Source of the DNA: Candidatus Obscuribacterales bacterium
GTDB lineage: Bacteria; Cyanobacteriota; Vampirovibrionia; Obscuribacterales; Obscuribacteraceae
Length of the DNA: 47,167 nt
Assembly: GCA_020050835.1 (NCBI GenBank)
Contig: JAGVKB010000057.1
Span: forward strand, 1-47,167
Direction of reading: 5' to 3'
In this document: positions 22,299-44,235 of the stretch, piece by piece
How positions within the stretch are numbered: position 1 is the stretch's first letter
Layout: each line of letters opens with the position of its first letter
The notes under the pieces: generated by a model
Databases searched by the model: none
What the model was told of the DNA's origin: nothing
The model's input: the letters and a program-made list of their open reading frames with translations, nothing else
Program-made: the position numbers and the translations under genes

Positions 22299-22377
22299 GG
22301 GCCTGGTTCTCCGGACATAAACCATTAAAGGTAGCGCCGGAAACCCTTAAAATTTCAACAGAAAGATTAAATCTGTT

Positions 22378-23043: not shown

Positions 23044-23835
23044 TTAAAGTAGTTGGCAAAACAGTTTTTCGGCCAGTAACGTTCCGAAATGTCTTGTCAC
23101 CCTCATTGCTATCGGGTTACTCCGCAACAGGAGACCAAGTTCAATATTGCGTTCCTGTGCAGCTTCGGTGAAATTAGCAGAAGAAATAAAGACTTCCTGG
23201 TTGTCTACCACCACGCATTTGGCATGTAAGCAAGCTTTGCTTTCGGGCGAAAGCTCTAAAGACTTTGGGAAATAGTAGACTTGCGGCACCGGCCTTTGTG
23301 GGGGCCATTGGTGTTGGAGAAAGCGGTGGCGAAACTTTTCGACCAAGGATTGTGCATCTGTTTGATCTCCATGCTGTCTTTGTATGTCTAAAAACAGCTG
23401 CACCTTGAGAGTCGACTTCTCTGCCATTCTGTCGGCAAGCGCTTGAAACACCCGCTGTCCCTGGTAGACTGCATAGCCGGCCACAAGCACTGAGGTGTTC
23501 GCTTTTGCAAATAATTCTCTTACAACTACGCTCGTATCCCGGTTTGAGACTGCACCTGCTTCTGGGCCAGTTGTGACAAAATCAACTAGCTCGTCAATGC
23601 ATTCGTGCTGTCGTCTGTCCTTTACTAAAACATCGAGAACATGAGCTATTTGTGTGCCATTAAATCCAAGAGAAGTCAGGGAGTTGAGGTCATCAGCAAT
23701 TGAAGCAGCCAGGGAAGAGTGGATGAGCCTTTGAACTACAAAAGCGGTAACTGGATTCTGAAGCCTACCGGAGCGTAATGCAGCGGCGAGTGCCTGAAGA
23801 TCTGAGTCAGAAAGTCGGATTATATGCTCGGTCAT
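23044..23835 (-). CDS. drmC: DISARM protein DrmC, phospholipase D-like
   Basis: 263 residues. A single HKD motif HAKCVVVDNQEVFISSANFT gives H204, K206, D211, with N221 and E232 completing the half-site, so an active PLD enzyme would need a dimer. The N-terminal 100 residues are helical and match the layout of DrmC. It overlaps drmB by four bases (ATGA) and ends the operon. In the studied class 2 system DrmC was dispensable for protection. Confidence 0.93.
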   Translation of the reverse strand: MTEHIIRLSDSDLQALAAALRSGRLQNPVTAFVVQRLIHSSLAASIADDLNSLTSLGFNGTQIAHVLDVLVKDRRQHECIDELVDFVTTGPEAGAVSNRDTSVVVRELFAKANTSVLVAGYAVYQGQRVFQALADRMAEKSTLKVQLFLDIQRQHGDQTDAQSLVEKFRHRFLQHQWPPQRPVPQVYYFPKSLELSPESKACLHAKCVVVDNQEVFISSANFTEAAQERNIELGLLLRSNPIAMRVTRHFGTLLAEKLFCQLL

Positions 23836-25643
23836 CTAGTAGGTCGAGGAAAGAACTCGATTCCACGATTTTCCAGCGTTGGGACAACTAACGCGCGATC
23901 CAAGTAATCGTTATGCTGTTCGCATGATGTTTCAGCGATTAGAACGCAACCATGACAGGCGGCCCCATGTAAGAAGCGTTTCTCGTGAGCATTTTCAGGT
24001 GCATGCTGAGCACATACAGGATCGTTTGAGCAGAGTTCACCAAGCTCCAGCGCAGACCGGACGTGCTGATGAATTCTGCGACCTACTTCAATTAGTCCAC
24101 CAAGAGTGCCCTCGGAGTCAGTCGATCCGGTATAAAGCAGGATGCCGTAACCAACATCCGGAAGCGCGTATATTCGTTCCTTAATCGAGCTAGCCGGGTA
24201 GCCACATTCCAGCGAAACGGAAGTAATCAGAAGATGCGCAAAGGAATGCAACAGGAGATACGGCAAACCGGGAAACTCTCTTCTGCTGTTGCTGTGTTCG
24301 TGGTGCCAGCGTGCGAAGCCATCTAGCAATTGTTGTCCACGGAGTTTGACGTCCGGTCGATTGATCCAAGCTTCGATAGCTTCTCGCTTGAACACTAGAA
24401 AGATTCCTTCGCCCTTGTTTTCAATCGCAGGTACCCAGGTGATCTCGGGCGCAAGATCTGCTCGTCGCACGCCGATTTCCAATTCGCCTTGGATGTCTGG
24501 CGCCGCCGCTTCAAAACGTGTAAATCCGACGAGGGCCATTACCTCACGGAGGCGGTGTACGAGAACGACACGCTCAATTGGAGCCATAACTTCGTTCTGC
24601 CATAAATCTGGAGGCAAGGCTCGGGCAAAGAAAGTTCCATCAGGACGATCTTCACCAATTTCTTCTTCAGCAGAAACAAGTGTTTCAAGTTCTGCCAGTT
24701 TCACCGATTTTGCAGGCCCACGTGAAGACGTTTTCCGAGCCTGGATTTCGGCGAAAACTTCTTCATCCGACAAGCCCTCAAGAGCCTTACTCACCCGAGG
24801 CTTTTTTCTTTCGTACTTAAGATCACCCAATTCTTCAACGACGCTCAAGAACTCCCAAATCAAATCAACGCGTTCCTTTACGGTGTGATCTCGCTCGGGA
24901 AGGGATATCACACTCATCATCTGAGAAAAATACGCGTTACTTGCTGTACGCACCAGCAGACGGCTAGGTTCACCACATGCTTCACGCGTCATAGGGCCGA
25001 GCCAGGGTCTCAAGCCGTTGCAAGTACCTAGAGCTCTATTCTGCAAATTCGCAGCCGCGACAAGACTGCGGGGTTGAGCGCCGCACTCGCAACGTATCCA
25101 ACTTTCGGAAAGATCGCCACTGGTTCCGCGTTCATCGAGCCAGATCTGCCGGCTGCAGTCGGAAGGTCCGGCATGTGCAAACACTCTCCAATCAATGTCG
25201 GCTATATGACCATTGCGACAAGCACGCACGAATCGTACCGGTACAACGGGCCGCTTCACTCGGTCATTATCTATGAACTTTCCCTTCGTGAGCCGTTTTC
25301 GGTGAACTAGCATTCGTGATCGAAGGGACGATTGCCCGCTGGTGTTTACATCTTGAGTCAAAAACCATTCAGGGAATTGCCATACTTTGATTCCAGTTCG
25401 CGGGGCAGTCGGGCTGTCTGGCTCCCTTGGCGGAGTCCGCAGGTAAATTGCCGGAACATCGAGCAAGCGGGCTATTTTTTCTGAGAGTCGAGGTTCGCTA
25501 ATCAAGTCGCCCATTGACCAGTCGTCGAGCCCAGCTACAAGTACGGCATTATTTGGGAGATCCATCATAGAACCTGGGCCAAAAGTAGTGACCAATTGAC
25601 TTTGACGAATCTGTCCGTGTGGTTTTGCGTTAGGTTTAGCCAT
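23832..25643 (-). CDS. drmB: DISARM protein DrmB (DUF1998)
   Basis: 603 residues. The N-terminus IRQSQLVTTFGPGSMMDL is characteristic of DrmB. The DUF1998 domain occupies about 450-590, with LLHSFAHLLI, GILLYTGSTDSEGTLGGL and a Cys cluster (CSNDPVCAQH...CHGCVLIAETSCE) expected to bind zinc. A second Cys/His group lies near 175-220. DrmB partners DrmA, and in the class 2 system the DrmA:DrmB complex binds DNA with a free 5' end. The stop/start of drmA and drmB share a base (TAATG). Confidence 0.95.
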   Translation of the reverse strand: MAKPNAKPHGQIRQSQLVTTFGPGSMMDLPNNAVLVAGLDDWSMGDLISEPRLSEKIARLLDVPAIYLRTPPREPDSPTAPRTGIKVWQFPEWFLTQDVNTSGQSSLRSRMLVHRKRLTKGKFIDNDRVKRPVVPVRFVRACRNGHIADIDWRVFAHAGPSDCSRQIWLDERGTSGDLSESWIRCECGAQPRSLVAAANLQNRALGTCNGLRPWLGPMTREACGEPSRLLVRTASNAYFSQMMSVISLPERDHTVKERVDLIWEFLSVVEELGDLKYERKKPRVSKALEGLSDEEVFAEIQARKTSSRGPAKSVKLAELETLVSAEEEIGEDRPDGTFFARALPPDLWQNEVMAPIERVVLVHRLREVMALVGFTRFEAAAPDIQGELEIGVRRADLAPEITWVPAIENKGEGIFLVFKREAIEAWINRPDVKLRGQQLLDGFARWHHEHSNSRREFPGLPYLLLHSFAHLLITSVSLECGYPASSIKERIYALPDVGYGILLYTGSTDSEGTLGGLIEVGRRIHQHVRSALELGELCSNDPVCAQHAPENAHEKRFLHGAACHGCVLIAETSCEQHNDYLDRALVVPTLENRGIEFFPRPTR

Positions 25644-28600
25644 TAGTCTTGATCCTCATCGTCAACTTCAATGCCGTCCATGTTTTTCATCCAGAGATTG
25701 ACGCTGGGCTCTACATCGCGCATCGACCTGTTTGCGCGAAACTTTCTGAAGCGAGGAGACTCATTCTGGAGGTCCGGATTTAAGAATTCATAGAGAAGTC
25801 TTCGTGCATTGCCCTGCTCAATTTGATATTGAAGAACACCGCCGATATTGGCTGTATCAGCAGCTATATGTGACCATTCGTCGAGCAGATCGAGCGATCT
25901 GTCTTTTACCCTAGCCTTCAGACGGGTCTTATCTGCGGGGCTTAGATCCGCATGGGATTCCGCACGGGATATAATCGCATCAATTGCAAAATTGAGTCTG
26001 CCACGCTCTGGCGTGATTTGATGAGCACCAAGAGCCGGTGTCATTGCATCATGGCCTTGGCGCACTAAACCTACAAGAGTGGCTGCCAGCGCCCTGTCCA
26101 ATGCCCGCGGTGAAAACGGAGTAACACTGGTCGCTTCTACGGAACGGTAAAATGTTTGATGATACGCTGCGAATCGCTCATAGTGCGATCGGTCTCTGGG
26201 TTTGTGAATATTCAAAATCGTAACTACGAATCCGGGCTTCTCGTGATTTCGTCCAACACGACTTGTCGCCTGGATGTATTCGGAGCTGGTTTTGGGCTGT
26301 CCAAAGGCGACCATCAAACCGAGTCTCGGAATGTCTAGACCAACAGAAATCATATTAGTGGCTATTGCGACATCCACATGATGATCCTTTTGATCAAAGG
26401 TCAACTCAAGGCGGCGTTTAGCCTCGGCGACTTTGTCGGTACTTATTCGACTTGTCAGCTCGACAACGTCGTAATGAATCTTGCGATCCTTGAATAGACC
26501 CTGTGCTTCATTAACGCGTTTTCGACTACCATAGCCCGATAGTCTGGTGCCAACTTCGTCCTCAATGAGTCGGCGAGCTCCACCCAACTCTCGCAGGCTG
26601 TTAAAGTAGCCAAGCAGGGTCATATACGGATCGGCCGCGTTATCGGGATCGTTTTTCTTTTGCAATGAATACAGTTTTTGTGCCGCACCTAAAAGAGCCA
26701 AATAGACGCGCATCATGATTACCTTAGGGCTTCTCCCCTGCGCTGTGATGCCTACGTATTGGCGTGCATGGCTGTGAGCCGTTGTGTGCGTTTCAGCAAA
26801 GAACGAGTCTCTTCTATCTGGTCCCGGTGGCGGGAAAATGTCGACAAGCCTGCGATTAAAGAGTGCGCGGATTTGACTTTCCGCCCGTCTAACCGTTGCG
26901 GTGGAAGCGACAATCTTCGCGCGGATGTTCTTCTCTCCAAGCTTGTGACTACACAGCTCGTCCAACGCAGTCTCGTAAAGGCCGACAATGGTACCCAAAG
27001 GTCCCGATATCAGGTGGAGCTCGTCCTGGATAATCAATTCAGGTGGCAGTAACTTTCCTGTTGGTAAAGGTTTGCCCATCATGGGTTCACAAGGTCCGTA
27101 GAATCCTTCGTCGTCGTACCTTTGAACGTGACCGAAGAATTTGCCGACCTCACCTGTCCAGGGAAGTGCGGCAAATTTGTCTACGGTGGCAACCATAAAG
27201 CATGGAAGCCGCCGGTAAAGCTGTTCGTCCACCGCGGCAATAGGAAGCGGTCTGTCCCTGAAAAAGTCGCAGGATCTATTGACACATGTTATTCGTAGTT
27301 CGGTTGGATAATCAGGGTTGGGGTAGAGATTGAAAGAAGTGTTTCGGAATTTCTCCCCACACCAAGGGCAGGCTTCCAGGGGTATTGGTGATGGTTTGCT
27401 ATCGTCACCCTTGTAAGCCCTGAGACGTGCCCGAGCAGAGTCTGGTGTAGTATCACCCTTTTCGCCAATGATATTCGGAGTGGCTGCCTTTCCCACCCAA
27501 AGACCGATTTCAAAAGGCCAGTTACCTAGTTTATCAACGTCTCGATTTCTCTCAAGCTCCAGCGCGCAAATGAGGGTGGAGGCTCGGCTTAACTGATCTA
27601 ACGTCAAGAGTCGCAGTGTATAGCGCATGAGAACGCTCAATCCGGCAGAGGCAATTCCGGGGTTCTTTAGACGTCTGAGAACAAGTGTGAATGCAGCCAA
27701 ACCAAGATATGCTTCGGTTTTGCCACCTCCCGTTGGGAAGAAAAGGAGATCTACGACTTCGCGTTCTTCACTCTCGGGCTCAGCAATTCCGACGAGATTC
27801 ATAAGAACAAACGCTAGCTGAAATGGTCTCCATTTGGGAGGGTCAATAGTGCTGGCATCTTTGCCGTTCATCGTACCGAATCTTCGGCGGGCAGCCATTG
27901 CCATTGCCAAATTTGCTATGCGAAAAGCGTCAAGCGCCATTGGATCAGCACCAAGTAGCTTGACTCCATTTCCAATACGTTTTGCAGCAAGCTCAGCACG
28001 ATGCAGTAGTTCTTGAGCAGTTTCTCGTTTTCTTTTTGACCAATTCGAACCTATCTGTTTTTTTTGCCCGGCAATCCAGTCCAGATAGTTCTTCTCAAAG
28101 GCGCCAAGATGCGCAGTTACTTCGCTTTGATCTTTTATTTTGGACAGAAGTTCCATCTCAAGCGTGACGCCTTCGATTGACGTTGGGGCTACTCTCTCAA
28201 CCTCAGCCTTAGGAATCCAACGAGTGCGCACATTCATACAGGCACCATCAACAGCCATAGCTTCGATGGCAATACCGTGGCCCACAGCGAATTCAAAAAC
28301 ATCCCGGTACTGGAGATCTGCTACGCGATCATCCCAGTCATTGCTCTCGAGGCATCGCAGGTCAGGGCGAGCCGCAAACGATCTTTCCGAAGCAATTTCA
28401 AGCTGTGCCTGAAACGCAAAGCCCTCGTCTTTCACTTCGTCTGGTGAAGGTGTTCTATTATTCACAAGAAAGATTGATACTGACTTGGTTCCAGGGACCA
28501 AGTGGTCTTCAAATGCATTAGTCGTCAATTGTTTGCCTGACACAACTATTGTGAGGCCAGCTGAATTTGGCACGTCATAAGTAAGCGGTTGCCCGTCCAG

Positions 28601-29086
28601 GGTTGACGGTAGCTGAACGTCTACTTGCTCCTCTCGTTGGATCCTTGTCCATGTAGTGGATGAAGCACCTTCTTCTGTACTATTCTCGTCACGCTTATAG
28701 TCGCCCCATCTGACGCTAACTTTCAGATCTCGCGTTTCTGGGGAAACTAGCACACTCAGGCCCATAGATGAAGGCAAATAACGAATGCGCGCCGCGGCCA
28801 CTTCAGGTGTATTTGCATCATCTGCACCTTGGGCATCTGTTACTTCATCAAGTTCATCAACGCTTTGCTCATCACCTTTCTGTTCTGGAGTTGCATCGAG
28901 GGGCACCAGAAATCCTGTCAGATACCACGTGGATGGGCGCTGATCCAGAACTTCGTTAAAATCTCCCGGTGATGCGGAGGTATGACCAGTAATTTCTCCC
29001 GGACCGATCAAATCAAGCTGGAGAGCGTCTGCTAGCTGCTCACGAACTTCTACGGGTGTCAATATAGTCTGCGTCATACTTTTCAT
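25643..29086 (-). CDS. drmA: DISARM helicase DrmA
   Basis: 1147 residues, the usual size for DrmA. A long N-terminal region (1-440) of the family precedes the helicase core: PTGGGKTEAY (Walker A at 451-460), a zinc-like insertion with CPWC (573-576) and CVNRSCDFF (601-609), DELH (688-691), STAT (728-731), then VGLDIPRLGLMVAFGQP and YIQATSRVGR (motifs V-VI, about 945-985). The ATG at 29086 follows AGGAT. It lies 15 bases behind drmMI. An A8 run on the coding strand (plus coordinates 28058-28065) is a possible slippage point but the frame is intact. Confidence 0.95.
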   Translation of the reverse strand: MKSMTQTILTPVEVREQLADALQLDLIGPGEITGHTSASPGDFNEVLDQRPSTWYLTGFLVPLDATPEQKGDEQSVDELDEVTDAQGADDANTPEVAAARIRYLPSSMGLSVLVSPETRDLKVSVRWGDYKRDENSTEEGASSTTWTRIQREEQVDVQLPSTLDGQPLTYDVPNSAGLTIVVSGKQLTTNAFEDHLVPGTKSVSIFLVNNRTPSPDEVKDEGFAFQAQLEIASERSFAARPDLRCLESNDWDDRVADLQYRDVFEFAVGHGIAIEAMAVDGACMNVRTRWIPKAEVERVAPTSIEGVTLEMELLSKIKDQSEVTAHLGAFEKNYLDWIAGQKKQIGSNWSKRKRETAQELLHRAELAAKRIGNGVKLLGADPMALDAFRIANLAMAMAARRRFGTMNGKDASTIDPPKWRPFQLAFVLMNLVGIAEPESEEREVVDLLFFPTGGGKTEAYLGLAAFTLVLRRLKNPGIASAGLSVLMRYTLRLLTLDQLSRASTLICALELERNRDVDKLGNWPFEIGLWVGKAATPNIIGEKGDTTPDSARARLRAYKGDDSKPSPIPLEACPWCGEKFRNTSFNLYPNPDYPTELRITCVNRSCDFFRDRPLPIAAVDEQLYRRLPCFMVATVDKFAALPWTGEVGKFFGHVQRYDDEGFYGPCEPMMGKPLPTGKLLPPELIIQDELHLISGPLGTIVGLYETALDELCSHKLGEKNIRAKIVASTATVRRAESQIRALFNRRLVDIFPPPGPDRRDSFFAETHTTAHSHARQYVGITAQGRSPKVIMMRVYLALLGAAQKLYSLQKKNDPDNAADPYMTLLGYFNSLRELGGARRLIEDEVGTRLSGYGSRKRVNEAQGLFKDRKIHYDVVELTSRISTDKVAEAKRRLELTFDQKDHHVDVAIATNMISVGLDIPRLGLMVAFGQPKTSSEYIQATSRVGRNHEKPGFVVTILNIHKPRDRSHYERFAAYHQTFYRSVEATSVTPFSPRALDRALAATLVGLVRQGHDAMTPALGAHQITPERGRLNFAIDAIISRAESHADLSPADKTRLKARVKDRSLDLLDEWSHIAADTANIGGVLQYQIEQGNARRLLYEFLNPDLQNESPRFRKFRANRSMRDVEPSVNLWMKNMDGIEVDDEDQD

Positions 29087-29101
29087 TTGCGATCATCCTA
29101 C

Positions 29102-32100
29102 TCATTCAATCTGCAATAACGTAAGTTGTTTGTCTGCCTCATCTTCGTCAGAAGTGTCGGCTGTCGGGGTTTGTTTCTTTGGTTTAGAAGATCTCTTCTT
29201 GCGTGTTGTCTTCGGACTTGACGATGATGGTCCTAAGAGATTTTCCTCATTGCCGCGGCGAATGTTCAGTTCAAGGAGTCGAGCGAATACTTCGTCTTTA
29301 ACTGCATCGCTCCATGCCCAGCGCCACGGCTTCCGACGAGTGCGTCTCGTTGGTGCCACTTCATCATCTTCTTCGTCATCATAGTCAAGGAAAAAATCGC
29401 AGGCGGGCATAATATCGCCCCATCCATAAGCGTCAAGGACGGCTTTATCCATCTTCTGATGAAGTTCACGAAGTTGCATAATTGGAGCCGAAGTATTGTT
29501 GGGATCATGAAAGCGGTTATAGGTTTTTGTTAATCCTTCATTGTTTTGTGTCATGAGCTGCTGCCGAAATTCGTAGTACTCTTGCCCGGCAACATTTAAA
29601 GCTTCATTTTCTTCAAAACCGATTGGGAAAGGAAAGGTTTCAAAACAGTCAGATGGGCCGTAGCGCATGTCGTCTTTGATTGAAGACGAGAAGAATCTTG
29701 CCCAGACCTCATGAATTCTAGACTGAAGAAGAGCAAAAGCAGAGTATGAATCGAAAGTAAAAACCACGGTCGATTCAGCAAAGACAGGACCTGTTTTTAC
29801 AAAAGCAAACGCACCTTGCTGACCATGTCTCGATAGCACCAACACACGGGAGAGGTCTTTGATGGCTTCGTGCAAGCCTGGTCGATCTCGGCACCATTGC
29901 CACCAATACTCCTTTAGCCTGCGTCCATCTGCTGTGTCATTCAATTCCATGCGTTCAGGCTTGACTCGTTCTTCGATTATCTGCATCAAGTCAGGCCATT
30001 CTCGTGCTCTGTCCTCAGTAAAAGGTGACAGATTTATTGCATACCTATGATGTGACTGGGTCGGGCTATTCAGCAGTTCCTCCCCGCCCAAATAGGGAAA
30101 TATTCGCTCTGCATTTCGTGGGTCTTTGGCGATTAGACGTTCCATTTCAGCCAAAGTATTAGCGGTACCACTCTGATCAGTATCGTCAAACGTGAAGCCC
30201 ATGCCGAGTAAAATGCTACCTTGATAGCTTTTGCCTTCATTGACTTTTAACTGTTTCGCATCATCATTTCCACCAGCATGATAGAGATAAGCAGTTATTG
30301 CAGGAACACTTCTTCCATCAAGGAGAAAAGGTGCTTCAAGATGTCCACGGTAAACGTGTGCAACACTGACGACTACGGCAGCATCGCCCGGCCACCTTAC
30401 GCGTTTGCGTGCGGAATATATGGTGCCTCCATTCGTACAAATCCATCTCAATCCGGTAGAACGGGTGTCGCCCTGACCAATAGTGTTTGTAGCAATGAGT
30501 CCGAACGCGCCATTCGATCTCAATAGCGCAAAGGCCCGTCGATAAAAGTGTGCCACCAGGTCGCTATTGCCATGCGATTCCTTATGCAAGGCTTTGAGCC
30601 AGTCAAGATATCCTTTGCGATTGCCGGCAATTAGAGTATTCTTGCCAGCAAATGGTGGATTGCCGACTATAGCATCGAAACCGCCGTTATCTCGATCGAA
30701 AACCTCTGGAAATTCGATCTCCCAATGAAATGGTTCAATTGGAAACGATCCTGAGCGCAATGCAATGATAGCGTCGGTCAAACTCTTGGTAGCACTAGTT
30801 TCCCCCTTAATGTCGTCAAGAGCAACTGAGACAAGTGCTAACTGATTGTTGCGTGTGTCGCTGCGGGATCGTTCTTTGTCGCCAGAGAAGAAGGCGGCAA
30901 CAATGCTATCGCCAACCATTCGAACAGGCTCTAAGGCCTTATCAGCATCCTGTAGCTTGACTTGCAACAATGGATAGAGGAACTTGTCAGGATTGTCCAA
31001 AATTTCCTTTCGAAATTTTGTTGCTGCTTGTACCGACTTCTTTATGCGTGTTTCGTCTATCGCACGTTGTCCCGTAGGCTGCCAATGGTATCGGATGATG
31101 TGATCCTTTGAAAGTCCAACAACTGAATCGCCGCATCTCAACGTGTGATCGAGAAAGGTGAAAGGGTGCTCTTTTGCAAGGGTCGCTAACCATAGCGAGA
31201 GCTTTGCCAGATTTACGGCCATGGGATTTCTATCAACCCCATACACACAGCGCTGTGCAACAAGTCGACGGGCATGTAAAATTTCGTCTTCGTCTACCGG
31301 AATGATCGGTATCGAATCATGAAAATTCCAAGCTCGTACCAACTCATCTCCCAGTTGTCGACAGCTTTCAACCAAGAAAGCGCCAGATCCCATGGCTGGA
31401 TCGCAGACCTTAATATCCAAAATCTGTTCTGGCGTTGGGTTGGGTCCAAGGGCTTCTACAATAGGCTTGAGAGTGGTTTTGACGATTGGTTCCGTCAAGG
31501 ACCTGGGGGTGTAGTGAGATCCGCTCTTCCGTCGTTCGTTCGAAGGCTGCAATATGATGTTGCCGCGTGGCACCGCGAACGGTGTAACGGATCTTGCAAT
31601 TTTCATTTCAAGTGCCGCCATCAAGTCTTGAACTGATTGAGCATCCTTCAGCGCGCGAGCTGGGACGCCTGATATCTTTTGATCGGTTAATTCGAGGAGC
31701 TTTTTTGCTCGATCACTTGGCTTAACCCGCAACAGAATTTCTAGATTTATTGTTGCTGGTGCGCCGTGCGGCTTCTTAGGTTTTATTGCTATTGAGGTTC
31801 CAGTAGCGACTTCAAGGGAGAATCCCATTATGGCTTCGTACACACTTCCAATTTGCTCGACATCGAGCGTGCGATAGCTGAGCCGCTCACTATCTAACAT
31901 CAGCAGGTTATTCAGGACACGAAACACTACTCCGTCAGGAACCTGAGGAATTGCGACGACCTGGAATTCAGTTGCAGAAGCACCTTCAAGAAAGGGGTAT
32001 ATGCTTGGATCGAATAGATGACCTTTGCGATCAGGAATTTGCAGATCACCGTGGGAACCACCCTCGAATACCATCCGAAACAAGGTAAGTAGCTGTGCCC

Positions 32101-33130: not shown

Positions 33131-33137
33131 CCGTTTG

Positions 33138-36100
33138 TTACTCCTGTAATGCGGGAGAAAGGTAGACGAGTCCAACTGGTTCAATTCGCCGCGCCTTCAC
33201 TTCATACACTTGGCGAACTCTGTCCGGCTCGGTCAGTAATTCCTGTTCAAGGAAATCGAGGCGTTTGTCCCAATACTTTCTATTGGTCTCCAGCTGTTTG
33301 AACTCTTCATCGAGAAATTGGATCTTCAATTGAACAACATCCTTGTCATACTTGGCGATCGTTGTCCTGATGTGCTGCCTTTGGCTTTCCAGTATTTCGC
33401 GCATGGCCTTTGATTCGGCTTCAGCACGTCTACTCAGTTTTTCTTCCGCCTTTTGTGCATACTCATTTCCTCTTCCTTCGAGATGTTGGAGAAGTTCTTG
33501 TATGTCTTGAGGCGCGGCATTCCTATATTTCTCAGCGATCTCCCCGTCAATGCGTTTTCCATCGTCAAGCAGCGCGTCTTCGAGCATTTGCAATGTTTTC
33601 GTCTCTGCTTCCGTTGCGTAAGGCGAAAGCGGCTGTTTGCGATTCTCCGGTGCTGACCATCGAGCAGTAATTGGCACTAGTTCTTCATGTAATCTTGCTG
33701 CGGCATTACCATATAGACATAGACGCCCAATTAAGATGACTCTAGGAACGCCATCCTTAGTTTGTGCTAGACAAGCCCTAGATAGATCTCGATAAATAAA
33801 ACCCTGACAGTTGAATCGGCTTAATAGGCGTTGTACAACACGGTGCTCCAAATGCAGATGAACAACGCCATCATCTAGTTTGCTTGGCTCCTCGAACACG
33901 ACCGGCCTAACAACAGCTGTTCGTCTCCATTCCCACGGCTTTTCATCGCGTTTCTTCGGAGTGCGCAGTGTGTCTATCGTACCGGTCCAAGTAACATCCG
34001 CTCCTTCTCTTTCATCCAACGGGGGAAAGGTAAATTGGTCCAGATCACCTGGAGCATTACTTGCAGGGCAAATTTCTAAGGCTTTGGAACCCAGGAGTTC
34101 AAGTGCGCAAGAAATAGCCGAGCGAAACTGATCTTTGTTCAAGCCGATATTTTTTCTCGACTCATCCAGAAGCGTTTCTAGGTTCGCAATGTCAGAACGC
34201 AGCTCCTCTTTGCGCTTACGGGTGACGTCCAACTCTGCCTCAGTTGTTGTTCGTTTCTCGTTCTCGACACTTGCTGTGTCAATTTGTCGCTCTAAGTCGT
34301 TAATACTGTTTCTTCGTATACCATGCTCAAGCTTCTTGTGAAGATCAATTTCTACGACCTGTGACAAGCTGCCGAGTTCTTCCTTGATCGTCTCAGTTTT
34401 CCTGACCAAAGCCTTGAGGATTATGTCCTCCGGTCGTTGCGTATAGAGAAAGTAATGACAGAAAACTTCTGGCTCTGGTTGCAATTTTCGATCGATGCGT
34501 CCATTGCGCTGCTCCATTCTGGAAGGATTCCAGGGAACATCAAAGTGAAACAGGTTCCAACAATATGCTTGTAGATTGAGACCTTCCCGAGCCGCATCTG
34601 TGGCTAACAGTATCCTCACGGGATGCCTGTCGGGATCAGCATTGAAGGCCTTTTTTATTTCATCTCGATCCTTGGGAGGCGTTTGTCCGTGAAACACAGC
34701 AATTCTTTCGGATGCGTGATCGGATTTGGCAATAGCATTCTCAAGCTGTTGTTCGAGATAACGTCTAGTATCTTCGTACTCGGTAAAAATGATCGCCCGG
34801 GTTTTGTTCCATGGTGCCCCTTCATTGTCCAAGGAGCACATGTTCTTGTTGATCCAGGTAATTAGCGCTTTCACGCGAGCATCTGGTCTTCCCCGGCTGT
34901 CTTCGGCAATGGCGCTCATCTCATCAAGCAAAGCTTGTTCCCTCGCGAACAGCTTTGCTGCGTAATCATCATTTGCGCTGCCCATGGTCGCCATGGTTAC
35001 AATTTCTACCTGCTCGTCTTCTTCATTTTCCAATGCAAGATCTGGCGCATCCAGGCGCTCGTCGTTCGCGTCAATCGATTGCCCTATCAAGTCATATTTT
35101 GGCGGCAGTTCAGGTTTGCTTATCTTCTTCGCTTGTGATTGCTCCCATTGCTTTTTGACGGTCTTTCGGTGGACATGTAAGGTCCTCGCAAATGCTTCAA
35201 TCGACGACAGCAACCGCTGCTGGAGTCCAGATATAAGTAGGCTTGCCGCAGCTTGGACCTTTTTACTTTCAGAATTCAGTCGTTCTTCTCTGACTGCTCG
35301 ATATTGATCGAGCAGTCGAGGGAGTTTAAGTTCCGGCGAGTCTTCCGAGAGTCCGTCAATAGTTACTGGCTGAACGGTTCTCTTTGGTAGCCCCCCAACA
35401 ATTTCACGCAAGTCCTCTTTCAAACGCCGGACCAAGATTTTGTCTAGCATTTTCGGTTGGACTGGAACACCGCGACAAAAACGCTGCGGATCGAGCAGTT
35501 CCAACAAGGCTGAAAAGCTGTTGGAGTGCCCATTGTGAGGGGTGGCAGACAAGAATAGTCTGTGCTCGAAACGCGGAGCGAGATCTCGAATAGCTTTGGT
35601 TAGAAGCGAATCAACCGCATACTTTTGGCCGCTTGCGGGGGCAGCTGCGTGCGCCTCATCAAAAATGAACATACTCCCGCTTCGCAGTGTGCCAAGCCAG
35701 TCACGAAGGGAGCCTACATAGTTTTCGTCGATTAGCAGTCGATGCGAAATCAGAAACCGTGAATGCGTTGTCCAAGGGTTGATTCCAAAGCCTCTCTCCC
35801 TCCTGATTCTGCTCATATAATCACGATCGAGGATTTCAAATGTCAAACCGAATCGCGATTCAAGTTCTTCTTTCCATTGCAGCAGCATCGACGGGGGACA
35901 GGACACGACGATCTCTTTAACCTTTCGTCGTAGCAATAGTTCTCGTGCAATCAGCCCCGCTTCAATCGTCTTGCCGAGCCCTACGTCATCTGCGATAAAT
36001 AGATTGACTCTCGGAAGGAGAAGCGCCTTTTTTAGCGGTTCCAATTGATATGCATCTATTCTGATGCCGGAGCGAAATGGCGATTGAAAAAGTCTTGGGT

Positions 36101-36407
36101 CTGTTGAAGTGACACAATTCCAACGAAGGGTATTGAAAAATGCGGCGAACATTTTCGGTTGATCAAAACCGCGCTTGGCAATGCAGTCCCAGTCCTCGGC
36201 AGAAATTACCTGAGCATCAATTTCTCGTTCCCAAAGAACTTCGAGCGGTTGCCCTTGATTATCGTCATCAAGGCAAGATAGCTTGACGAGCGTGCTTTCG
36301 CCTTTTTTGGGTGGCGAAATAGTTTCTTCGACGAGGTAAAGCCGCTGGCGGACTCGAGCAATTTGGCCCGGCACTGGAATCGGCGCTGCCTGCAAAGTGA
36401 CAACCAT
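33138..36407 (-). CDS. drmD: DISARM SNF2-like helicase DrmD
   Basis: 1089 residues. IADDVGLGKTIEAGLIA holds Walker A (GLGKT, 143-147), FIFDEAH is at 247-253, LSATPHNGHSNSF is motif III, and FHFDVPWNPSRMEQRNGRIDR is the SNF2/RapA-type motif V-VI region near 640. A coiled coil (about 690-770) and a long charged helical C-terminus (about 950-1065) follow. Size and position directly before drmMI identify DrmD, the marker of class 1 DISARM. A 110-base gap with a TATAAT precedes its start, whereas downstream genes are nearly contiguous. Confidence 0.94.
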   Translation of the reverse strand: MVVTLQAAPIPVPGQIARVRQRLYLVEETISPPKKGESTLVKLSCLDDDNQGQPLEVLWEREIDAQVISAEDWDCIAKRGFDQPKMFAAFFNTLRWNCVTSTDPRLFQSPFRSGIRIDAYQLEPLKKALLLPRVNLFIADDVGLGKTIEAGLIARELLLRRKVKEIVVSCPPSMLLQWKEELESRFGLTFEILDRDYMSRIRRERGFGINPWTTHSRFLISHRLLIDENYVGSLRDWLGTLRSGSMFIFDEAHAAAPASGQKYAVDSLLTKAIRDLAPRFEHRLFLSATPHNGHSNSFSALLELLDPQRFCRGVPVQPKMLDKILVRRLKEDLREIVGGLPKRTVQPVTIDGLSEDSPELKLPRLLDQYRAVREERLNSESKKVQAAASLLISGLQQRLLSSIEAFARTLHVHRKTVKKQWEQSQAKKISKPELPPKYDLIGQSIDANDERLDAPDLALENEEDEQVEIVTMATMGSANDDYAAKLFAREQALLDEMSAIAEDSRGRPDARVKALITWINKNMCSLDNEGAPWNKTRAIIFTEYEDTRRYLEQQLENAIAKSDHASERIAVFHGQTPPKDRDEIKKAFNADPDRHPVRILLATDAAREGLNLQAYCWNLFHFDVPWNPSRMEQRNGRIDRKLQPEPEVFCHYFLYTQRPEDIILKALVRKTETIKEELGSLSQVVEIDLHKKLEHGIRRNSINDLERQIDTASVENEKRTTTEAELDVTRKRKEELRSDIANLETLLDESRKNIGLNKDQFRSAISCALELLGSKALEICPASNAPGDLDQFTFPPLDEREGADVTWTGTIDTLRTPKKRDEKPWEWRRTAVVRPVVFEEPSKLDDGVVHLHLEHRVVQRLLSRFNCQGFIYRDLSRACLAQTKDGVPRVILIGRLCLYGNAAARLHEELVPITARWSAPENRKQPLSPYATEAETKTLQMLEDALLDDGKRIDGEIAEKYRNAAPQDIQELLQHLEGRGNEYAQKAEEKLSRRAEAESKAMREILESQRQHIRTTIAKYDKDVVQLKIQFLDEEFKQLETNRKYWDKRLDFLEQELLTEPDRVRQVYEVKARRIEPVGLVYLSPALQE

Positions 36408-36429
36408 AGAAATACCGCCCCACTACTTG

Positions 36430-36469
36430 ACTTGTGCAAGTGCGTATGAGTTATGACGTTAAGATTATA
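36430..36469 (-). promoter_or_regulatory. Candidate internal promoter and palindrome ahead of drmD
   Basis: On the minus strand a perfect TATAAT (plus coordinates 36464-36469) lies 57 bases before the drmD ATG; no good -35 is visible at 16-18 bases. Between it and the start, ACTTG and CAAGT form a short palindrome (36430-36441). This gap is the only one above 20 bases in the seven-gene block, and could give the canonical DISARM genes separate transcription. Confidence 0.45.
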
Positions 36470-36517
36470 AACTCCTCAAGTCTTTACTGATCGTTTAGAG
36501 AATTGTGGTATGTGACA

Positions 36518-39500
36518 TTAGGGATTGCTGTCAAGAGCAGTGTCGGTTTCAAGGCGGAGAAGCTCTCTAAGTTCGTCATCGGTCATTAGTAACAACTGCA
36601 ATTCGTGTAAATGGTCATGCGTGAAGGTTATCTGGCAGAGCTTGCCGACGAGAAACAAATCGAAGCGATAGTACTGAAGACGCTGAGACAGATCGCAGTC
36701 TCGGATTTGCGTTACGAACGTTCTTAGTTTTACAGAAGGAAACCCGAATTCGTATTGAGCAGCATGTGTTGCACAGAGGCACAGTGAGTTTGCGCCACTT
36801 TCAATCCATTCGCCCACCTTCTTCGCCTTGATTATGTTATGTGATTGAAAGAATGGCCGTCCGCCGGCAGTCGGAAAGGAATCATTGCAAATTTGGCACT
36901 TTCCGTCGTACCAAGCCATGAGCGCCGCACGGACTCCACTATCAGGTTCTTTCCATACCTTACGGGACTTATGCTCGTAGCGCATGTATTCTGGTGGCTC
37001 GTTTGCTCGTGCATCGAGAATGTCTTGACCTTTGAGTATGGTGCGACGCTGAGGATTTCGAGTTGGCAGCGGTGGCGGCAAAGGACTATATTCACCGCCC
37101 TTTCTATCTCGCTTCTCGTTCAAATATTTTTCCACATCGGGTTGCATAGCACCCAAGTCGTGATCAGAAGCATCATTTCCATTTCCTGAATCTGGGCCTG
37201 AAATTGGTGGCATAGCTGGTGAACGCAACAATGGCTTGCCTGGTGGTGATACATCGGGTTCTTTGTCTGAGTCTTGGTCGGTATCCGGCTCGAAATAATG
37301 TGCATCCTCGGGCAAGTCGTGATCGTCACCAAGAGCTGTTGCGGTGGTGCCTTCAACACCATGCCTTGGTGCGGTAGTTCTTTTGACCACATCATAGCCC
37401 CAACGATGAAGAACCTGGCTCGCCTCTTCAAAATCTTCGGCATCCAAAAGCCGTTCGAGAGGAGCAACTATCGTGCAACTGTCAACTTCAGGATTCAAGA
37501 AAATTGCAATCTGATGCGCAAGATCGGTAACCGAGTAGTCTTTTTCGACAACAAACAATTTGGAGTTTTCGTCATCCAGAAAGGCAGTGGTGGGAAGTGG
37601 TTCTGAGACCGTAAGTCGTCTTGCCTTCTCCTTGTCACCCATGGGCAGGTATAGAGCTTCAAGAATGGAGTCAACTGCATAAACTGTTAGATCTTCAAAT
37701 AGCTCCTGTGAAAGGTGTATCTCACTTGTATGTCCAGCTTGTAGAACGACCTGCTTGATGAGGGGGCTCAATTCATTTAGCCAGAGTTCAAGTTCGTCGT
37801 AAGGGCGAGCGTTGCCTTGTATCTTTGGTTCACGGACGACAGCCTTACTAAGTGATCGAACTCCCAATAGGGAAAAGAATGATGCTGTGTGCTCTTCTTT
37901 CGGAATCAAGAATTGGTCAATCTGTCCGCCGATGAGCTGGATGTATTTCAATTTGTCCTTGAATAACAGATCTTTGGGTAGAAAGAGAAGGTTGTCTTTC
38001 TCGTTCGCAATTGTCTTGGCAGCTTTGAGGGGAGCCAGATCGAAAGGCTTCTGTCCACGGACAAATCTTGACGCCAACTCGGCATAACAGTAGCTAAGAA
38101 CCTCATTTGCTTGATCGTCAATCGGACGATTCTTAGATCCGAACTCGTCTGCAATGGAGAGAACAACGTCGCGAAAATCCATCGCGGTTGGATCTTCTTT
38201 GGCTCCCAGGTCATTCAGAAGAGTGTGATAGGGCTTGAATTTCTCATCTAGCGTTACTCGCCAACGTCCTAGTCTGTGCGATTTCCAAAGTAGTTCGGAC
38301 GGTTTTCGAAAGTTACCGTCAATAAAAATGCAGTGAGTGTCTTGCAACTCGCCGACGATATAGTCTCTGTCTGTGCTCATCTGACGCTGTAAGAACTTGT
38401 AGATATCGATGTGTGGCGTCTTATGCGTTTCTCGACAGTGAAGCAGATGGTTGATCACGAGGTCAACGGAAGGGTCGTCCTTGATGCCGAAAGCATCGCG
38501 TATCTCCTTTTTGAGAGCATCAGAGAATGCGACAAACTTGCCTTGGCTTTCGAAGAGTTTCGCGTTTGCTCTTGTGTAAAGATCGGTAGGTTTGTACCAG
38601 TTGCGGCGGTCGGACAATTCCGGGAGCCACCGTAACGAACGGAGCTTCCCTATTTCATTGCGATCTTCGATGCTTAAATCGGTATAGTTTTCAGCAAGGT
38701 ACTTGTATATTTTTTGAATCTGGCTAATAGATTCATCCGTTGGAGGTACAGCAACTAGGCTCATTATCCTGGCGCAGATATCGGAAATTCGAGGAGAGCT
38801 TTCAACGCCAAGGAGTTCCAAAAATGATCGAATATCATTCGACTTCCCTGTACCAGAAACCTTCACGTATTTAGCGAGAGGTCCAAGCATCTCTGCTACT
38901 TCTGGAGAATTGAAATACACTTGTCCTGGTCGGCGACGAACAGTATCGGTACAGGGAACAAGGCGACACTCTTCTAATGCCGTCATGATATCTCGTCGAT
39001 TTCTTATTTCCTCCATGCTGTCGGCCAACCATTCGATAACTTCGCGAAGTTGTTCATCCGGAATGTCTCGTTCGGTGTTGAGATATGGGCAAAGTTTCTT
39101 GGAGATAAGGAGAGACCAATCGATTTCTCTGGCACCCAGCTCGCGCCAAAAAATGAGAACTTCCTTGCTGATTCCGTCTGTCTTGACGACTTCGGCAAGA
39201 CCAAAAGGATCCTTGAATCTAATCGACGGTAGCATCAGATCGGGTAAAGGCAGGAAGGTATTGCCAGACGGATAGATTGGCAATTTAACAAGTGCCGCAT
39301 GCCATTGAAGATCGAGTTGTTCTGCGCGACGCGAGAACCAATAATGTAGGTCATTGATCTCAGTTCCTAGAGCAGAGAGATCATTCAAGACACGCTTTCC
39401 AGATGACTGAAAAGCATCGTGAAAGGCTCTGATCACGTCTGTTGGACTAAGGTCAGGAACTCGGTTGTAGATTTGGGATTCGTCTGCGAACATTTCATCA

Positions 39501-41125
39501 CGGTCGGCAAATGTGAGTTTGTCTGTGACCGGGGAGAAGAGTTTAAGAAGCTTCTTGTCGATGCGAAATAGCTTTCCGAGCTGTCTAATTCGTCCTGACG
39601 TCGAGATTCCAATAGGCATTGATAGGATGAGCTGCTGTGCCTGATTCTCTGACTTGCCTCGCCTGAAGATATGGTCTATTAGCTTGTACAGCTTCCTTCG
39701 TTGGCTCTTGTCGCTAATCCAAGCCGGTGAAGATTTGACTGGCATGTCGTTTTGAACAGGAGCTTTGCGGAAGGCATTGGCAATGTCCTCCAGATTTATC
39801 CGTTGCACGTCGAACTGTGTAAGCAGTGTTTCGTGCTTGCTCAGATCAGCGTGATTGACATGTATGGACAGCGAAGTCAACGCGTCGCTTGATTCGAGTT
39901 CAACTTTGTCGGAAACAAGTCTAATTTCCTCTGGGTAGAACCATTTGCCTTGTGATGAATACATGATCCTTGATTTCGGAGCATGCTCTTTTGCGTGAGT
40001 CCAAAAAACGGAGAGATGATTGTTACTCCTAGCAGCAAAGAGGTTCTCCAAAGAACGAAAGAAGAGGGTATGTCCGACCGCTGGGGCAAGAGTGCGCATT
40101 GAATCAGCAAAGAGATAGGCGGCAGCTTTTAAGGCTGCGTTGTTCCATTCAACCTTATGTTTGCTACCATCGAAATCGATATGCTTTCGATCCGGCACCG
40201 GAAAGAAGTCTGCATTAATGTGAAAGTTGAAGCCTGTGTGATGTTCGGTCGGGAGATACGAAAAAATGAGCCCATTGGTCTTCACGTCGTGGTCTGCATT
40301 GTAAGCAATGGTGACTTCAGTCGACTTCTTCGGCGGTATCATCGGATACTTTGTGCGTAATTGCTGGGCAACATCAGCAAATGATTTGCGCAGGATCAGC
40401 CACTTTTGTCGGTCTCCCTTTTCATTCTCGATTTCGAAGGTGGTCGAGCTCTGCCTGTGGCGTATGGCTGCTGCGATAAGCTGCCCCTTTGACAGAACCT
40501 CAATACGGTCGACATGTTTAACGAACAGGAGAATGTGTGGCAGTTCTTTAACAAGTTCTTCCTGGAAGGCCCTAATTTGATTTGGTGATAGTTTTGTCTG
40601 TTCCAACTCCTGGCGAAGGTGAGTGTCGTCGAAGACCCACGGCAGTGCGATCCTTGTGTGATCGCAATTCGGTAAAGCATGTGGACTCTTTTCTAGAACT
40701 TCGATTCGCTGGTGTTCGGGATTTTCTGGAATTAGCTTCCAGAGCACTTCTTGCGAATGAATCTCGGGAGTGTCAGTAAATCCATAAACAGAAATAAAGC
40801 CGATACCAAACGTTCCGATTGTGTCATCTTCATCCCGCTTACCAGCTGACGCCACGTCTCGCATTCGATGAAAGTCGCAAGGTACGCCTTTCTGTGTCTT
40901 GCGCGAGCATATCTTCGCACCTACGTCTGTGCACTTCTGAAAGACGGACGAATTGGACACTATCAGTCTATCCTTGGAGAAATCGAACTTTATCCATATT
41001 GCTTTAGCGTCATCTGCATTCTGAAGAAGTTCAGAACACATTGTGCGAAAACCATGCAGGCTCTGGAGTTGCGTCCGGAGAAAGTTCAGATAGTCCACAC
41101 CTTGAGATAGGAACTGGCGATTCAT
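36518..41125 (-). CDS. Giant GHKL (sacsin/MORC-like) ATPase with C-terminal HNH-like motif
   Basis: 1535 residues. The N-terminal Bergerat ATP-binding fold shows CSELLQNADDAKAIWIKF (N-box, 30-47) and DTIGTFGIGFISVY (G1 box, 101-114), the sacsin/Hsp90/MORC type. About 250-1200 is a long helical region without a recognised domain; an acidic/proline linker follows (about 1265-1375). The end carries CQIC (1410-1413), SHNII with H1429, N1446, then LCLCATHAAQYEFG with H1454: the order of an HNH nuclease zinc finger, lacking the usual double His. It overlaps the upstream helicase by ATGA and precedes drmD. It is not part of textbook DISARM. Nuclease activity is inferred only. Confidence 0.8.
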   Translation of the reverse strand: MNRQFLSQGVDYLNFLRTQLQSLHGFRTMCSELLQNADDAKAIWIKFDFSKDRLIVSNSSVFQKCTDVGAKICSRKTQKGVPCDFHRMRDVASAGKRDEDDTIGTFGIGFISVYGFTDTPEIHSQEVLWKLIPENPEHQRIEVLEKSPHALPNCDHTRIALPWVFDDTHLRQELEQTKLSPNQIRAFQEELVKELPHILLFVKHVDRIEVLSKGQLIAAAIRHRQSSTTFEIENEKGDRQKWLILRKSFADVAQQLRTKYPMIPPKKSTEVTIAYNADHDVKTNGLIFSYLPTEHHTGFNFHINADFFPVPDRKHIDFDGSKHKVEWNNAALKAAAYLFADSMRTLAPAVGHTLFFRSLENLFAARSNNHLSVFWTHAKEHAPKSRIMYSSQGKWFYPEEIRLVSDKVELESSDALTSLSIHVNHADLSKHETLLTQFDVQRINLEDIANAFRKAPVQNDMPVKSSPAWISDKSQRRKLYKLIDHIFRRGKSENQAQQLILSMPIGISTSGRIRQLGKLFRIDKKLLKLFSPVTDKLTFADRDEMFADESQIYNRVPDLSPTDVIRAFHDAFQSSGKRVLNDLSALGTEINDLHYWFSRRAEQLDLQWHAALVKLPIYPSGNTFLPLPDLMLPSIRFKDPFGLAEVVKTDGISKEVLIFWRELGAREIDWSLLISKKLCPYLNTERDIPDEQLREVIEWLADSMEEIRNRRDIMTALEECRLVPCTDTVRRRPGQVYFNSPEVAEMLGPLAKYVKVSGTGKSNDIRSFLELLGVESSPRISDICARIMSLVAVPPTDESISQIQKIYKYLAENYTDLSIEDRNEIGKLRSLRWLPELSDRRNWYKPTDLYTRANAKLFESQGKFVAFSDALKKEIRDAFGIKDDPSVDLVINHLLHCRETHKTPHIDIYKFLQRQMSTDRDYIVGELQDTHCIFIDGNFRKPSELLWKSHRLGRWRVTLDEKFKPYHTLLNDLGAKEDPTAMDFRDVVLSIADEFGSKNRPIDDQANEVLSYCYAELASRFVRGQKPFDLAPLKAAKTIANEKDNLLFLPKDLLFKDKLKYIQLIGGQIDQFLIPKEEHTASFFSLLGVRSLSKAVVREPKIQGNARPYDELELWLNELSPLIKQVVLQAGHTSEIHLSQELFEDLTVYAVDSILEALYLPMGDKEKARRLTVSEPLPTTAFLDDENSKLFVVEKDYSVTDLAHQIAIFLNPEVDSCTIVAPLERLLDAEDFEEASQVLHRWGYDVVKRTTAPRHGVEGTTATALGDDHDLPEDAHYFEPDTDQDSDKEPDVSPPGKPLLRSPAMPPISGPDSGNGNDASDHDLGAMQPDVEKYLNEKRDRKGGEYSPLPPPLPTRNPQRRTILKGQDILDARANEPPEYMRYEHKSRKVWKEPDSGVRAALMAWYDGKCQICNDSFPTAGGRPFFQSHNIIKAKKVGEWIESGANSLCLCATHAAQYEFGFPSVKLRTFVTQIRDCDLSQRLQYYRFDLFLVGKLCQITFTHDHLHELQLLLMTDDELRELLRLETDTALDSNP

Positions 41126-44100
41126 GATCTCACAACCTCAATGACGCCGGCAGCAATGCGCTTCGTCGTGATGTCGCATTGTGCTGTTTCGTCTAACTGT
41201 CGGAGTTTAGTGGAAAGCTCGCGTTCGATTCGAGACTGTTCAGATTCTTTCATTCGTTTGATTTTTGGCTCTTTCATCTGGGCAATTTCAGATTGCAATC
41301 GCTCTAATCTCCGGGAGAAGAAAGCAGAAATCGATGCACTGCGACGTGCGCGCACTAGTTCATTGACAGCAATCATTCGTTCAAGTTCTAGCCTTCGTCG
41401 ACTGTCCAAGTCTGCGTCAAGGCCATGTAGAGCAGACTCAATGTCTGTGCGGCTGGCGCCAGTGACATTGGCATTTGGGAGAAGACCGCCTATGTGGCTG
41501 ATGAGTCGTTTTGACATGTCGGGGACAATAACCTTCTTATCTATGTTCCAGGCGGCTCCGACCAATCGTGTCTCTCGATTAGCACATACGTATTGCCAAA
41601 GATCGCAAACGAAAATGTATCGTCCTGGCTCGACATCGTCTTTGGGTAGTAGAACGCTAGAGACCAAGAGCGCGTCTGAGCTTGTTTGCCAGTATTCAAC
41701 GGCGGCTCTGGCTAGCGGATGAACGGCAGTCACGAATGGCAAGCTCCGCTCGCGAACAGCGGTGTCTTGATCAAATGTCAGTGAAATTGATGGTTCTTCG
41801 GAGTCCAACCATCTTAGGAATGCTGAATCCTGTTGTGCGTAAAAAGTCTTGGTGTGGCCGTGCAGGAGTGTTGCGATTGAGGCTTTGCCTTGTTTATTCA
41901 CTTTGAGCTGCCAGATTTTTTCTTGGTCCTCAGTCAACGTGCCTTGAATTTCTTGAAGTGCAATGAAGAACCGAACCATGTGTTCGATATCGTGTGGACT
42001 GACAGTTCGACCGTCGGCCTGTAAGGCATCCAATTCTTCAAAAAGTAGTTGATCTAATCCAACTATGTTTTCTCGATCAGACTCAAGGCGTCTGTATTCC
42101 TCGGCAACACGTATTGCATTGTCGAGCAGTTGTTTAACACGAGCTTCTTGCTCGGCGTTCGTTAGATTGGGATCAACAGCGGTTTTTGTCAGTTCGGGAA
42201 CGAGATCGCCGAGAACCTCCTCTAGGTCGCCGAGAGTATGCCTAAAGATATCCAACCGCTCGTAACAGCGGTAGAAGATTCGATGATCAACTGTGCCTGG
42301 AGTAACAAAATTGAAGATGAGAACCTTCGGGCTCTTTTGACCGAAGCGGTCAATTCTTCCAATCCGTTGTTCCAGGCGCATCGGATTCCATGGAATGTCA
42401 TAATTTACGAGTCGGTCACAGAACTCATAGTCGAGTCCTTCGCATCCCACCTCTGACGAGAGCAGAATATCAATTGCGTTAGTATCATTTCGAGGCAGTC
42501 TGAACCTGGCACGAAGCTGGTCTCGGTCGAAGTCGGGAGTCTTGCCGGTGATGACTGCAACACGGTAGCCCTGGGCTGCTAGATTCTTTCGTAAGTATTC
42601 CAATGTGTGCAAGAAGAAGGAGAAGATCAGTAGCTTTCCAGGCTCGCCCTCCATGGTCGGTTTCGCAATTTTGCTGACGAGGGTATCTAGTTTCGGATCA
42701 TCTGCTGGTAATGCTGCCGCCAATGTTCTAATCTCATCCGCGAGCTCGACAAGGTTGTTGTCAAAATCGACTCCTTCATCGTCTTCGTCGAAACCATCTG
42801 AGACAGCAGACGTGATGAATCGGCCGGTGCGTAGGAATGAGTCTAGAAAACTAAGTAGAGCAGGTAAGCAGCTTGCGGCTTGGCGCTGCAACATGTCCGA
42901 TATCAGGGCGACGATTCGTGGATGATACTTCAGAAGTAGCAATTGTTTGCGGAACTCTATGATCTTGTCATAGAGCTGTTTTTGTTGTGGTGTGAATTCG
43001 ACCTCCACCGTTTTTGGATCGCGAACAGTGAATTCGCCAATATCTCGGCGTCTTGTTCGGTTGACTAAATGCGCAAGAGTATGGGTCTCTTCTAGATCTC
43101 TTAGGCATCTAATTCGCTCGTCAGCAGAGAGAGCAGAAACGCTGCTTGACTCTAATTTCTGGAGACAACTCGAAAAACGCGGATCTGGTTCTAAGATCCG
43201 TTTTCCCCAACTTGTAGCAATAGCCTTTCGGAGTGCTTCTGCAGCGGAGAGGGACCAATTTGCTGTCTGATCACCTGCACGAACATAACGCATGGCCTCA
43301 AGGATGTATGTATTTGGTTCGACCATTTCATAGAAGGTCGATTGATCAAGAAATTGGTCTGGACGCAGAAGGCTTAATAAGGAGAAGAGATTTACTGAAC
43401 CGACGTGGACAGGAGTTGCTGATAAAAATACGACTCCGTCTGCGTTGTCACAAAGATATCTGAGAAGGCGGTGTGAGCTGGTGGTTGTATTTCTGACATG
43501 GTGTGCTTCGTCGAGAATAACCAAGTCAAATTGTGGAGGCGGTGATAGATTTGCGAGCCCAATCATGTTTTTGGTACCGTCCAGATACTCCGTTTGACGA
43601 AACAATTCCAAGTTGACTATTGCGCGGCCGAATTGCTCTGGCCATTCGCCCTCAAGATGTGTTTCTTTAAGGCAATGCATCAAAGTATCTGCTGACAGGA
43701 CTGTGAAATTCTCGTCGAAGCGCCTTAGTTCAGCACGCCATTTGCTGGTAAGTGCTTTGGGGCAAAGAATGAGTACTCGTCGCAAGTTTCTTCGAGCATT
43801 CAACTCTTTAAGGATTAGTCCGGCTTCGATTGTTTTGCCAACTCCTACTTCGTCTGCTATGAGAATCCGGGGCTGGTCGGCGGCCAGAAACCGAAGAAGG
43901 GGCTTGAATTGAAAAGGAATGAATTTGATTCTGGCGGCATGGAGTGCATAAAGTGCGTCTGTTTGTGGATTTGATAGACGAGCACTCGTAAGCCTGGCTC
44001 TGAATTCCGGTGTCGTAAGCCATTGACGTTCAGCTAGCGCTCGGACTACAGCTTGTTCAGTGGACTCCTGAATGACTTGTATTAACTGATCTTCTGCGTA

Positions 44101-44235
44101 GACTGCAAAATCAGCATTTCCATGAAAAACTCGATATCGGCTTATCGAGCCGATCGGCGTTAAGATCTCCAGTACAGGGCCGACACGTTTACGGTCGGCG
44201 CGAAGAGCAACCAAATCTCCAACTTTGAATGCCAT
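41122..44235 (-). CDS. Second SNF2/RapA-type helicase, first gene of the extended DISARM operon
   Basis: 1037 residues. A small N-terminal beta-rich domain ([20 protein letters not shown]) is followed by [17 protein letters not shown] (Walker A 131-135), [10 protein letters not shown] (DEAH 242-245), [14 protein letters not shown] (motif III), and [23 protein letters not shown]-type motifs near 635-658. A charged coiled coil fills the last 150 residues. It differs from DrmD in its N-terminus, motif I (GVGKT against GLGKT) and RIGRIDR against RNGRIDR, so it is a distant paralogue, not a recent duplicate. The overlap with the GHKL gene implies joint function, perhaps as translocase and gated nuclease. 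Confidence 0.88.
   Translation of the reverse strand: [1037 protein letters not shown]

Follow-up and report, generated by a model that had tools for sequence, protein, structure and literature searches.

Two autonomous defence systems probably lie side by side in the 47,167-nucleotide contig JAGVKB010000057.1 of a Candidatus Obscuribacterales bacterium (hereafter the window), and we put the probability of this reading at roughly 0.6. The first is a class 1 DISARM system (23044-36407). The second is a module of two genes (36518-44235), which encode an SNF2 translocase and a GHKL ATPase. On the best reading, this SNF2-GHKL pair is an autonomous defence candidate of two genes whose ATPase motor has been swapped, and it adjoins DISARM within one island. 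An earlier note on this DNA had instead regarded all seven genes as one composite system, with the pair as an extension of DISARM.

The class 1 DISARM operon and the adjoining pair

All seven minus-strand open reading frames (ORFs) described in the earlier note were recovered at the same positions in an ORF check. Its naming and ordering of the five DISARM genes is borne out by NCBIfam and PADLOC profiles at very high scores. Class 1 DISARM is defined by the five genes DrmA, DrmB, DrmC, DrmD, and DrmMI, without drmE (PMC9252829). The region 23044-36407 of the minus strand contains all five in the canonical order drmD-drmMI-drmA-drmB-drmC, with scores above or far above the model cut-offs. No DrmE model was among the PADLOC matches listed for nine proteins of the locus and right flank and ten of the left flank. 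The drmD gene (33138..36407) encodes the SNF2-like helicase of class 1 DISARM (NCBIfam NF038317, 1089 bits, cut-off 610). It is followed by drmMI (29102..33184), an adenine methyltransferase gene (PADLOC DrmMI, 1300 bits) with intact GSGAFL and NPPF motifs. Its translation probably starts from an internal ATG (about 33130) and not from the TTG at 33184. The drmA gene (25643..29086) encodes a YprA-family helicase of the short class 1 form (NCBIfam NF038325, 1179 bits, cut-off 950), drmB (23832..25643) a DUF1998/MZB protein (NF038324, 571 bits, cut-off 240), and drmC (23044..23835) a phospholipase D-family nuclease (NF038319, 180 bits, cut-off 133) in which the HKD motif, HAKCVVVD, is intact. 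The region is a complete, ordinary class 1 DISARM system. The SNF2-GHKL pair, in contrast, lies outside its published definition and outside every other class 1 locus inspected.

The pair is encoded on the same strand, ahead of drmD. The SNF2 gene (41122..44235, minus strand, 1037 aa) and the GHKL gene (36518..41125, minus strand, 1535 aa) overlap by 4 nt (ATGA, 41122-41125), which confirms the tight coupling reported previously, and this pairing is conserved across loci. A gap of 110 bp (36408..36517, minus strand) separates the end of the GHKL gene from drmD. On this strand the scan called neither a terminator nor a sigma-70 promoter in the gap, although an exact TATAAT is present there.

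Occurrence of the pair and its relation to DISARM

A profile scan of 84,980 species genomes was performed with the GHKL alignment, from which the best 80 loci were taken as the sample. An SNF2 orthologue adjoins the GHKL gene in 28 of these best 80 GTDB loci and, additionally, on three rhizobial plasmids; the SNF2 gene precedes the GHKL gene in 30 of these 31 cases. The hosts belong to Pseudomonadota, Actinomycetota, Bacillota, Cyanobacteriota, Chloroflexota, Myxococcota, Planctomycetota, and others. A genome from the same phylum as the window contributed one further pair (locus L156). The window has the same arrangement, in that an SNF2 gene of the pair clade is located directly upstream of a GHKL gene with a pair-type C-terminal domain. 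DISARM genes are found near one of the 32 pair loci outside the window (L079), and the other 31 are without DISARM. For the reverse comparison, a DrmMI match (E up to 1e-60) was found in 22 of 386 genomes of the phylum, the genome of the window among them. The region around drmD was inspected at 22 loci, 18 from genomes and 4 from plasmids, and in 18 of these 22 the visible sequence upstream of drmD amounts to 2.4 kb or more. The pair was present at none of the 22 class 1 loci with drmD, and 0 of 18 is still compatible with a pair rate of up to about 17% at such loci. On these two counts no recurrent link between the pair and class 1 DISARM was found, and the composite put forward in the earlier note is left without support. 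Across everything searched, the pair stands beside drmD only here, an outcome which that note had itself named as speaking against its proposal.

The neighbours of pair loci elsewhere are varied, comprising QatA, IetS, LmuB, a restriction enzyme, PDC-S01, PDC-S68, or DrmAB. These mixed neighbours suggest a mobile defence module, next to which DISARM happens to lie in the window. Apart from SNF2 and GHKL, no gene was seen repeatedly next to the standalone pair. Relatives of the GHKL protein were not found in phage records, and relatives of GHKL or DrmMI were not found in viral contigs, where the single-protein queries reach close relatives only. The window's genus consists of the window's genome alone, which provides no close relative for comparison.

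Several observations weigh against two independent systems. Since the pair and DISARM are located on the same strand, 110 bp apart, with no terminator called between them, co-transcription is possible. In Nostoc sp. WHI (L079, 6851-18993), genes for SNF2, GHKL, a long-form DrmA, and DrmB follow one another in a row, with the pair about 135 bp ahead of DrmA-DrmB, which leaves room for a link between the pair and the DISARM core; no drmMI-like gene was detected within that locus. Furthermore, a different SNF2 gene pair is located between drmD and drmMI in locus L140, implying that DISARM operons accept SNF2 modules. Moreover, phage protection by the pair, clamping of DNA, and coupling through the C-terminal domain, all discussed below, are predictions. 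The shared strand with its short gap and the arrangements in L079 and L140 favour a seven-gene composite, with a second translocase and an ATPase supplied by the pair and acting in one pathway with DrmAB. Such a composite is nevertheless unlikely in view of the counts given above, and DISARM and the pair are each complete on their own. The closest relatives of the L079 DrmA-DrmB proteins (L183 and L184, 69-71% identity) also lack the pair in the stretch read. A recurring SNF2-GHKL-DrmA-DrmB operon was likewise rejected, the arrangement being confined to L079.

The SNF2 protein and the hybrid GHKL protein

The SNF2 protein of the pair is a RapA-like translocase of double-stranded DNA (dsDNA) with the Pfam domains SNF2-rel_dom and Helicase_C. 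Its Walker A motif (DEVGVGKT) is located at residue 128, DEAH at 242, and motif VI (8 residues) at 623. RapA is its best solved relative, and the C-terminal 370 residues match RapA both in a profile search and in a fold search (Foldseek, E about 1e-8). These searches revealed no additional nuclease in the C-terminal part, and a MORC-like fold match to it was discarded as a weak chance match. The protein is not a second DrmD, because it reaches 365 bits against the NCBIfam DrmD model, for which the cut-off is 610. Duplication of DrmD is also ruled out by its position far from DrmD in the SNF2 tree. In this tree, built by a quick method, the window protein is located inside the pair SNF2 clade (97-99%) together with L079, L061, L060/L067, and L156. 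A Calothrix plasmid DrmD nests among the DrmDs of the window's phylum, which makes a cyanobacterial host probable.

The GHKL protein is of the sacsin type, consisting of Tiamat-type residues ~1-1320 followed by the pair-type C-terminal domain. It matches Pfam SACS (E=1e-20), its best PADLOC family is TmtA/Tiamat (PDLC03969, 927 bits), and a search of solved structures gave sacsin as its sole relative. In a tree built from the first 420 residues, the window sequence is placed among 31 solo GHKLs (100/100), apart from the paired ones, so that its motor is that of the solo Tiamat-type clade and not that of the pair clade. The C-terminal part behaves differently. A hidden Markov model (HMM) was built from the last 160 residues of paired GHKLs, with the window left out, and the window protein matches it at 101 bits (E=3.6e-31). 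All intact paired GHKLs carry the domain, and the four paired ORFs that lack it are truncated. It is also present in 3 further GHKLs that start near a contig end, where the upstream gene is unseen, and it was detected by the HMM in 0 of 50 other GHKLs without SNF2. The C-terminal domain tracks the SNF2 neighbour.

The window copy is, accordingly, a hybrid of a solo Tiamat-type GHKL motor and a pair-type C-terminal domain. The SNF2 tree, with the window in the pair clade, conflicts with the GHKL tree, with the window in the solo clade, and therefore one of the two genes has undergone exchange or recombination. The simplest explanation is substitution of a Tiamat-type motor for the original, with retention of the C-terminal domain and a junction at about residues 1320-1357. 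An alternative that may also apply is the loss of an ancestral C-terminal domain in the solo clades. At three other loci (L058, L059, and L096), one SNF2 gene is followed by two different GHKL genes of the paired type, both with the C-terminal domain.

Tiamat is a single gene and is not known to have a helicase partner. The window protein shares with it the GHKL/sacsin ATPase, a TmtA profile match, and an N-terminal part that groups with the solo TmtA-type sequences. It differs in its overlap with the SNF2 gene of the pair family and in its pair-type degenerate HNH domain, whereas the solo relatives are without an adjoining pair-family SNF2 gene and several plasmid ones are annotated DUF3883.

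The degenerate HNH domain

The C-terminal domain (36570..37060, minus strand; GHKL residues about 1357-1518) is a degenerate HNH zinc domain of the McrA/TagI fold, with a predicted role in coupling to SNF2. Its profile matches the HNH domains of EcoKMcrA (E=6.6e-8) and TagI. The predicted model, with a mean predicted local distance difference test score (pLDDT) of 87.7, has its best fold matches with the same two proteins (Foldseek, VIA), although the individual Z values are modest, at 8.7 and 6.8. The structural zinc site of the fold is retained, the three zinc cysteines being invariant and the fourth ligand always Cys or His in 28 of 28 C-terminal domains. The residues of an active McrA/TagI-type nuclease fare otherwise. 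The metal His that follows the fourth zinc ligand is replaced in all 28 (Asn1430 in the window), and 2 of the 28 keep the general-base His, which is replaced in the other 26 (Ala1455 in the window). A search with Pfam found no HNH in the window domain. An active nuclease is unlikely because the metal and general-base His residues are mostly lost while the zinc ligands are kept. In the designation GHKL-HNH given in the earlier note, the HNH fold is thus real, whereas most catalytic residues have been lost and the ATPase is of the sacsin type; the description of the protein as an ATP-gated effector is weakened accordingly. A nuclease system, in which ATP binding by GHKL gates the C-terminal HNH and the SNF2 translocase delivers it, as in McrA-type restriction, could draw on the homology to the EcoKMcrA and TagI domains and on the HNH nucleases reported with MORC and SWI2/SNF2 operons (Iyer et al. 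2008, PMC2292703), and is distinctly unlikely in view of the replaced residues.

A further His at GHKL residue 1505 (about 36611-36613) is invariant in 28 of 28 C-terminal domains and is not a known HNH residue.

Proposed mechanism

It is tentatively proposed, at somewhat less than even odds, that the pair represents an autonomous, widespread anti-phage system hidden under the names 'DrmD' and 'Tiamat', in which the inactivated HNH serves as a modular coupling domain for distant GHKL motors on one RapA-like translocase. The SNF2 protein would track along invading dsDNA, and the degenerate McrA-type HNH domain would act as a non-catalytic zinc platform coupling the GHKL ATPase to the translocase. 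The GHKL motors could be exchangeable, as seen here, because the C-terminal domain would set the partner. MORC and MutL ATPases clamp or compact DNA. By analogy, an ATP-driven GHKL dimer might clamp or compact the DNA, a model that we consider doubtful. Replication or transcription of the clamped DNA would then be blocked, or a nuclease supplied elsewhere would be recruited, and any damage to the DNA would be the work of another enzyme.

That the pair is a decayed or transient neighbour, or a housekeeping module for RapA-like transcription or repair, is very improbable: RapA is indeed the closest to SNF2 among solved structures and the defence role is a predicted one, but the genes encode long, uninterrupted proteins in which the motifs are conserved, the distribution is patchy (a close SNF2 homologue in 2 of 386 genomes of the phylum), defence genes are neighbours elsewhere, and some copies are located on plasmids.

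Comparison with known systems

The suggestion in the earlier note that the pair might belong to Hma (helicase-methylase-ATPase) was not upheld. HmaA is an SNF2-like helicase and the window SNF2 matches it at family level (158 bits), below the best PADLOC model, and no HmaB or HmaC profile match was listed for the two proteins of the pair. HmaA, HmaB, and HmaC are thus not found together, and an Hma subtype is ruled out on profiles. Restriction-modification-like systems combining GHKL with SF2 helicases, including SWI2/SNF2 with HNH, have been predicted, and the MORC-specific S5-domain motif is given as GhXhhpXXRhl (Iyer et al. 2008, PMC2292703). The MORC/paraMORC operons of that study share the theme of a GHKL ATPase beside an SWI2/SNF2 helicase, sometimes with HNH domains. 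Compared at the level of theme, the window differs in its sacsin-type GHKL and in an HNH fold that is fused and mostly catalytically dead. ARMADA covers relatives of DISARM (Bell et al. 2025, PMC12458937) and shares with class 1 DISARM a RapA-like helicase, a PglX-like methylase, and a YprA-like helicase. However, GHKL and Tiamat appear nowhere in the text of PMC12458937, and the window has DrmA/B/C of the DISARM type. No published system with exactly the SNF2-GHKL pair was found in the open-access literature, subscription papers, including the one defining Tiamat, being outside the search.

If the proposal is true, a two-gene system is separated from DISARM and Tiamat, with which profile libraries confuse the pair. 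It would also mean that a single domain determines the matching of GHKL ATPases to DNA motors, and would provide an example of a nuclease domain retained as an inactive scaffold.

The PDLC02623 model and the insertion in L140

The best PADLOC model for the window SNF2 of the pair is PDLC02623, named 'DrmD'. True DrmD matches this model far less well than other SNF2 proteins do. The SNF2 protein inserted in L140 reaches 1632 bits and the Leptolyngbya SNF2 of L023 1027 bits, while the SNF2 proteins of pairs reach 338-452 bits. Counts of DrmD based on PDLC02623 may therefore be inflated, and such calls need care. The insertion itself (L140:8305-12960) consists of this second SNF2 type and a gene of 491 aa with no known function, located between drmD and drmMI of a class 1 DISARM. 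In L190-L192 and L023, the same SNF2 type is found away from DISARM, with a 491-like or 744-like gene as its neighbour, and together with this neighbour it may constitute another separate module.

The surrounding island

The window is a crowded defence island, with Lamassu, AbiE, DISARM, and the pair. A Lamassu-type set (12498-16026, plus strand) has the order LmuA-LmuC-LmuB (351, 152, and 524 bits, respectively) and carries the ABC-3C domains CTD6 and MC2. An AbiEi-AbiEii toxin-antitoxin pair (18085-19853, minus strand) and a transposase-like gene (21120-22325) lie between this set and DISARM. Further to the left, a gene with a TOTE-type archaeo-eukaryotic primase domain (5741-7537, minus strand, 598 aa) was identified by a weak match of 29.5 bits (cut-off 27). 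To the right of the pair, two divergent genes (44404-45549, minus strand; 45958-46956, plus strand) have sub-threshold DnaJ-domain matches. Elsewhere, in two distant genomes, a RecD-like helicase of the candidate family PDC-S68 is located directly upstream of the pair (L063:3151-6645 and L156:918-4565).

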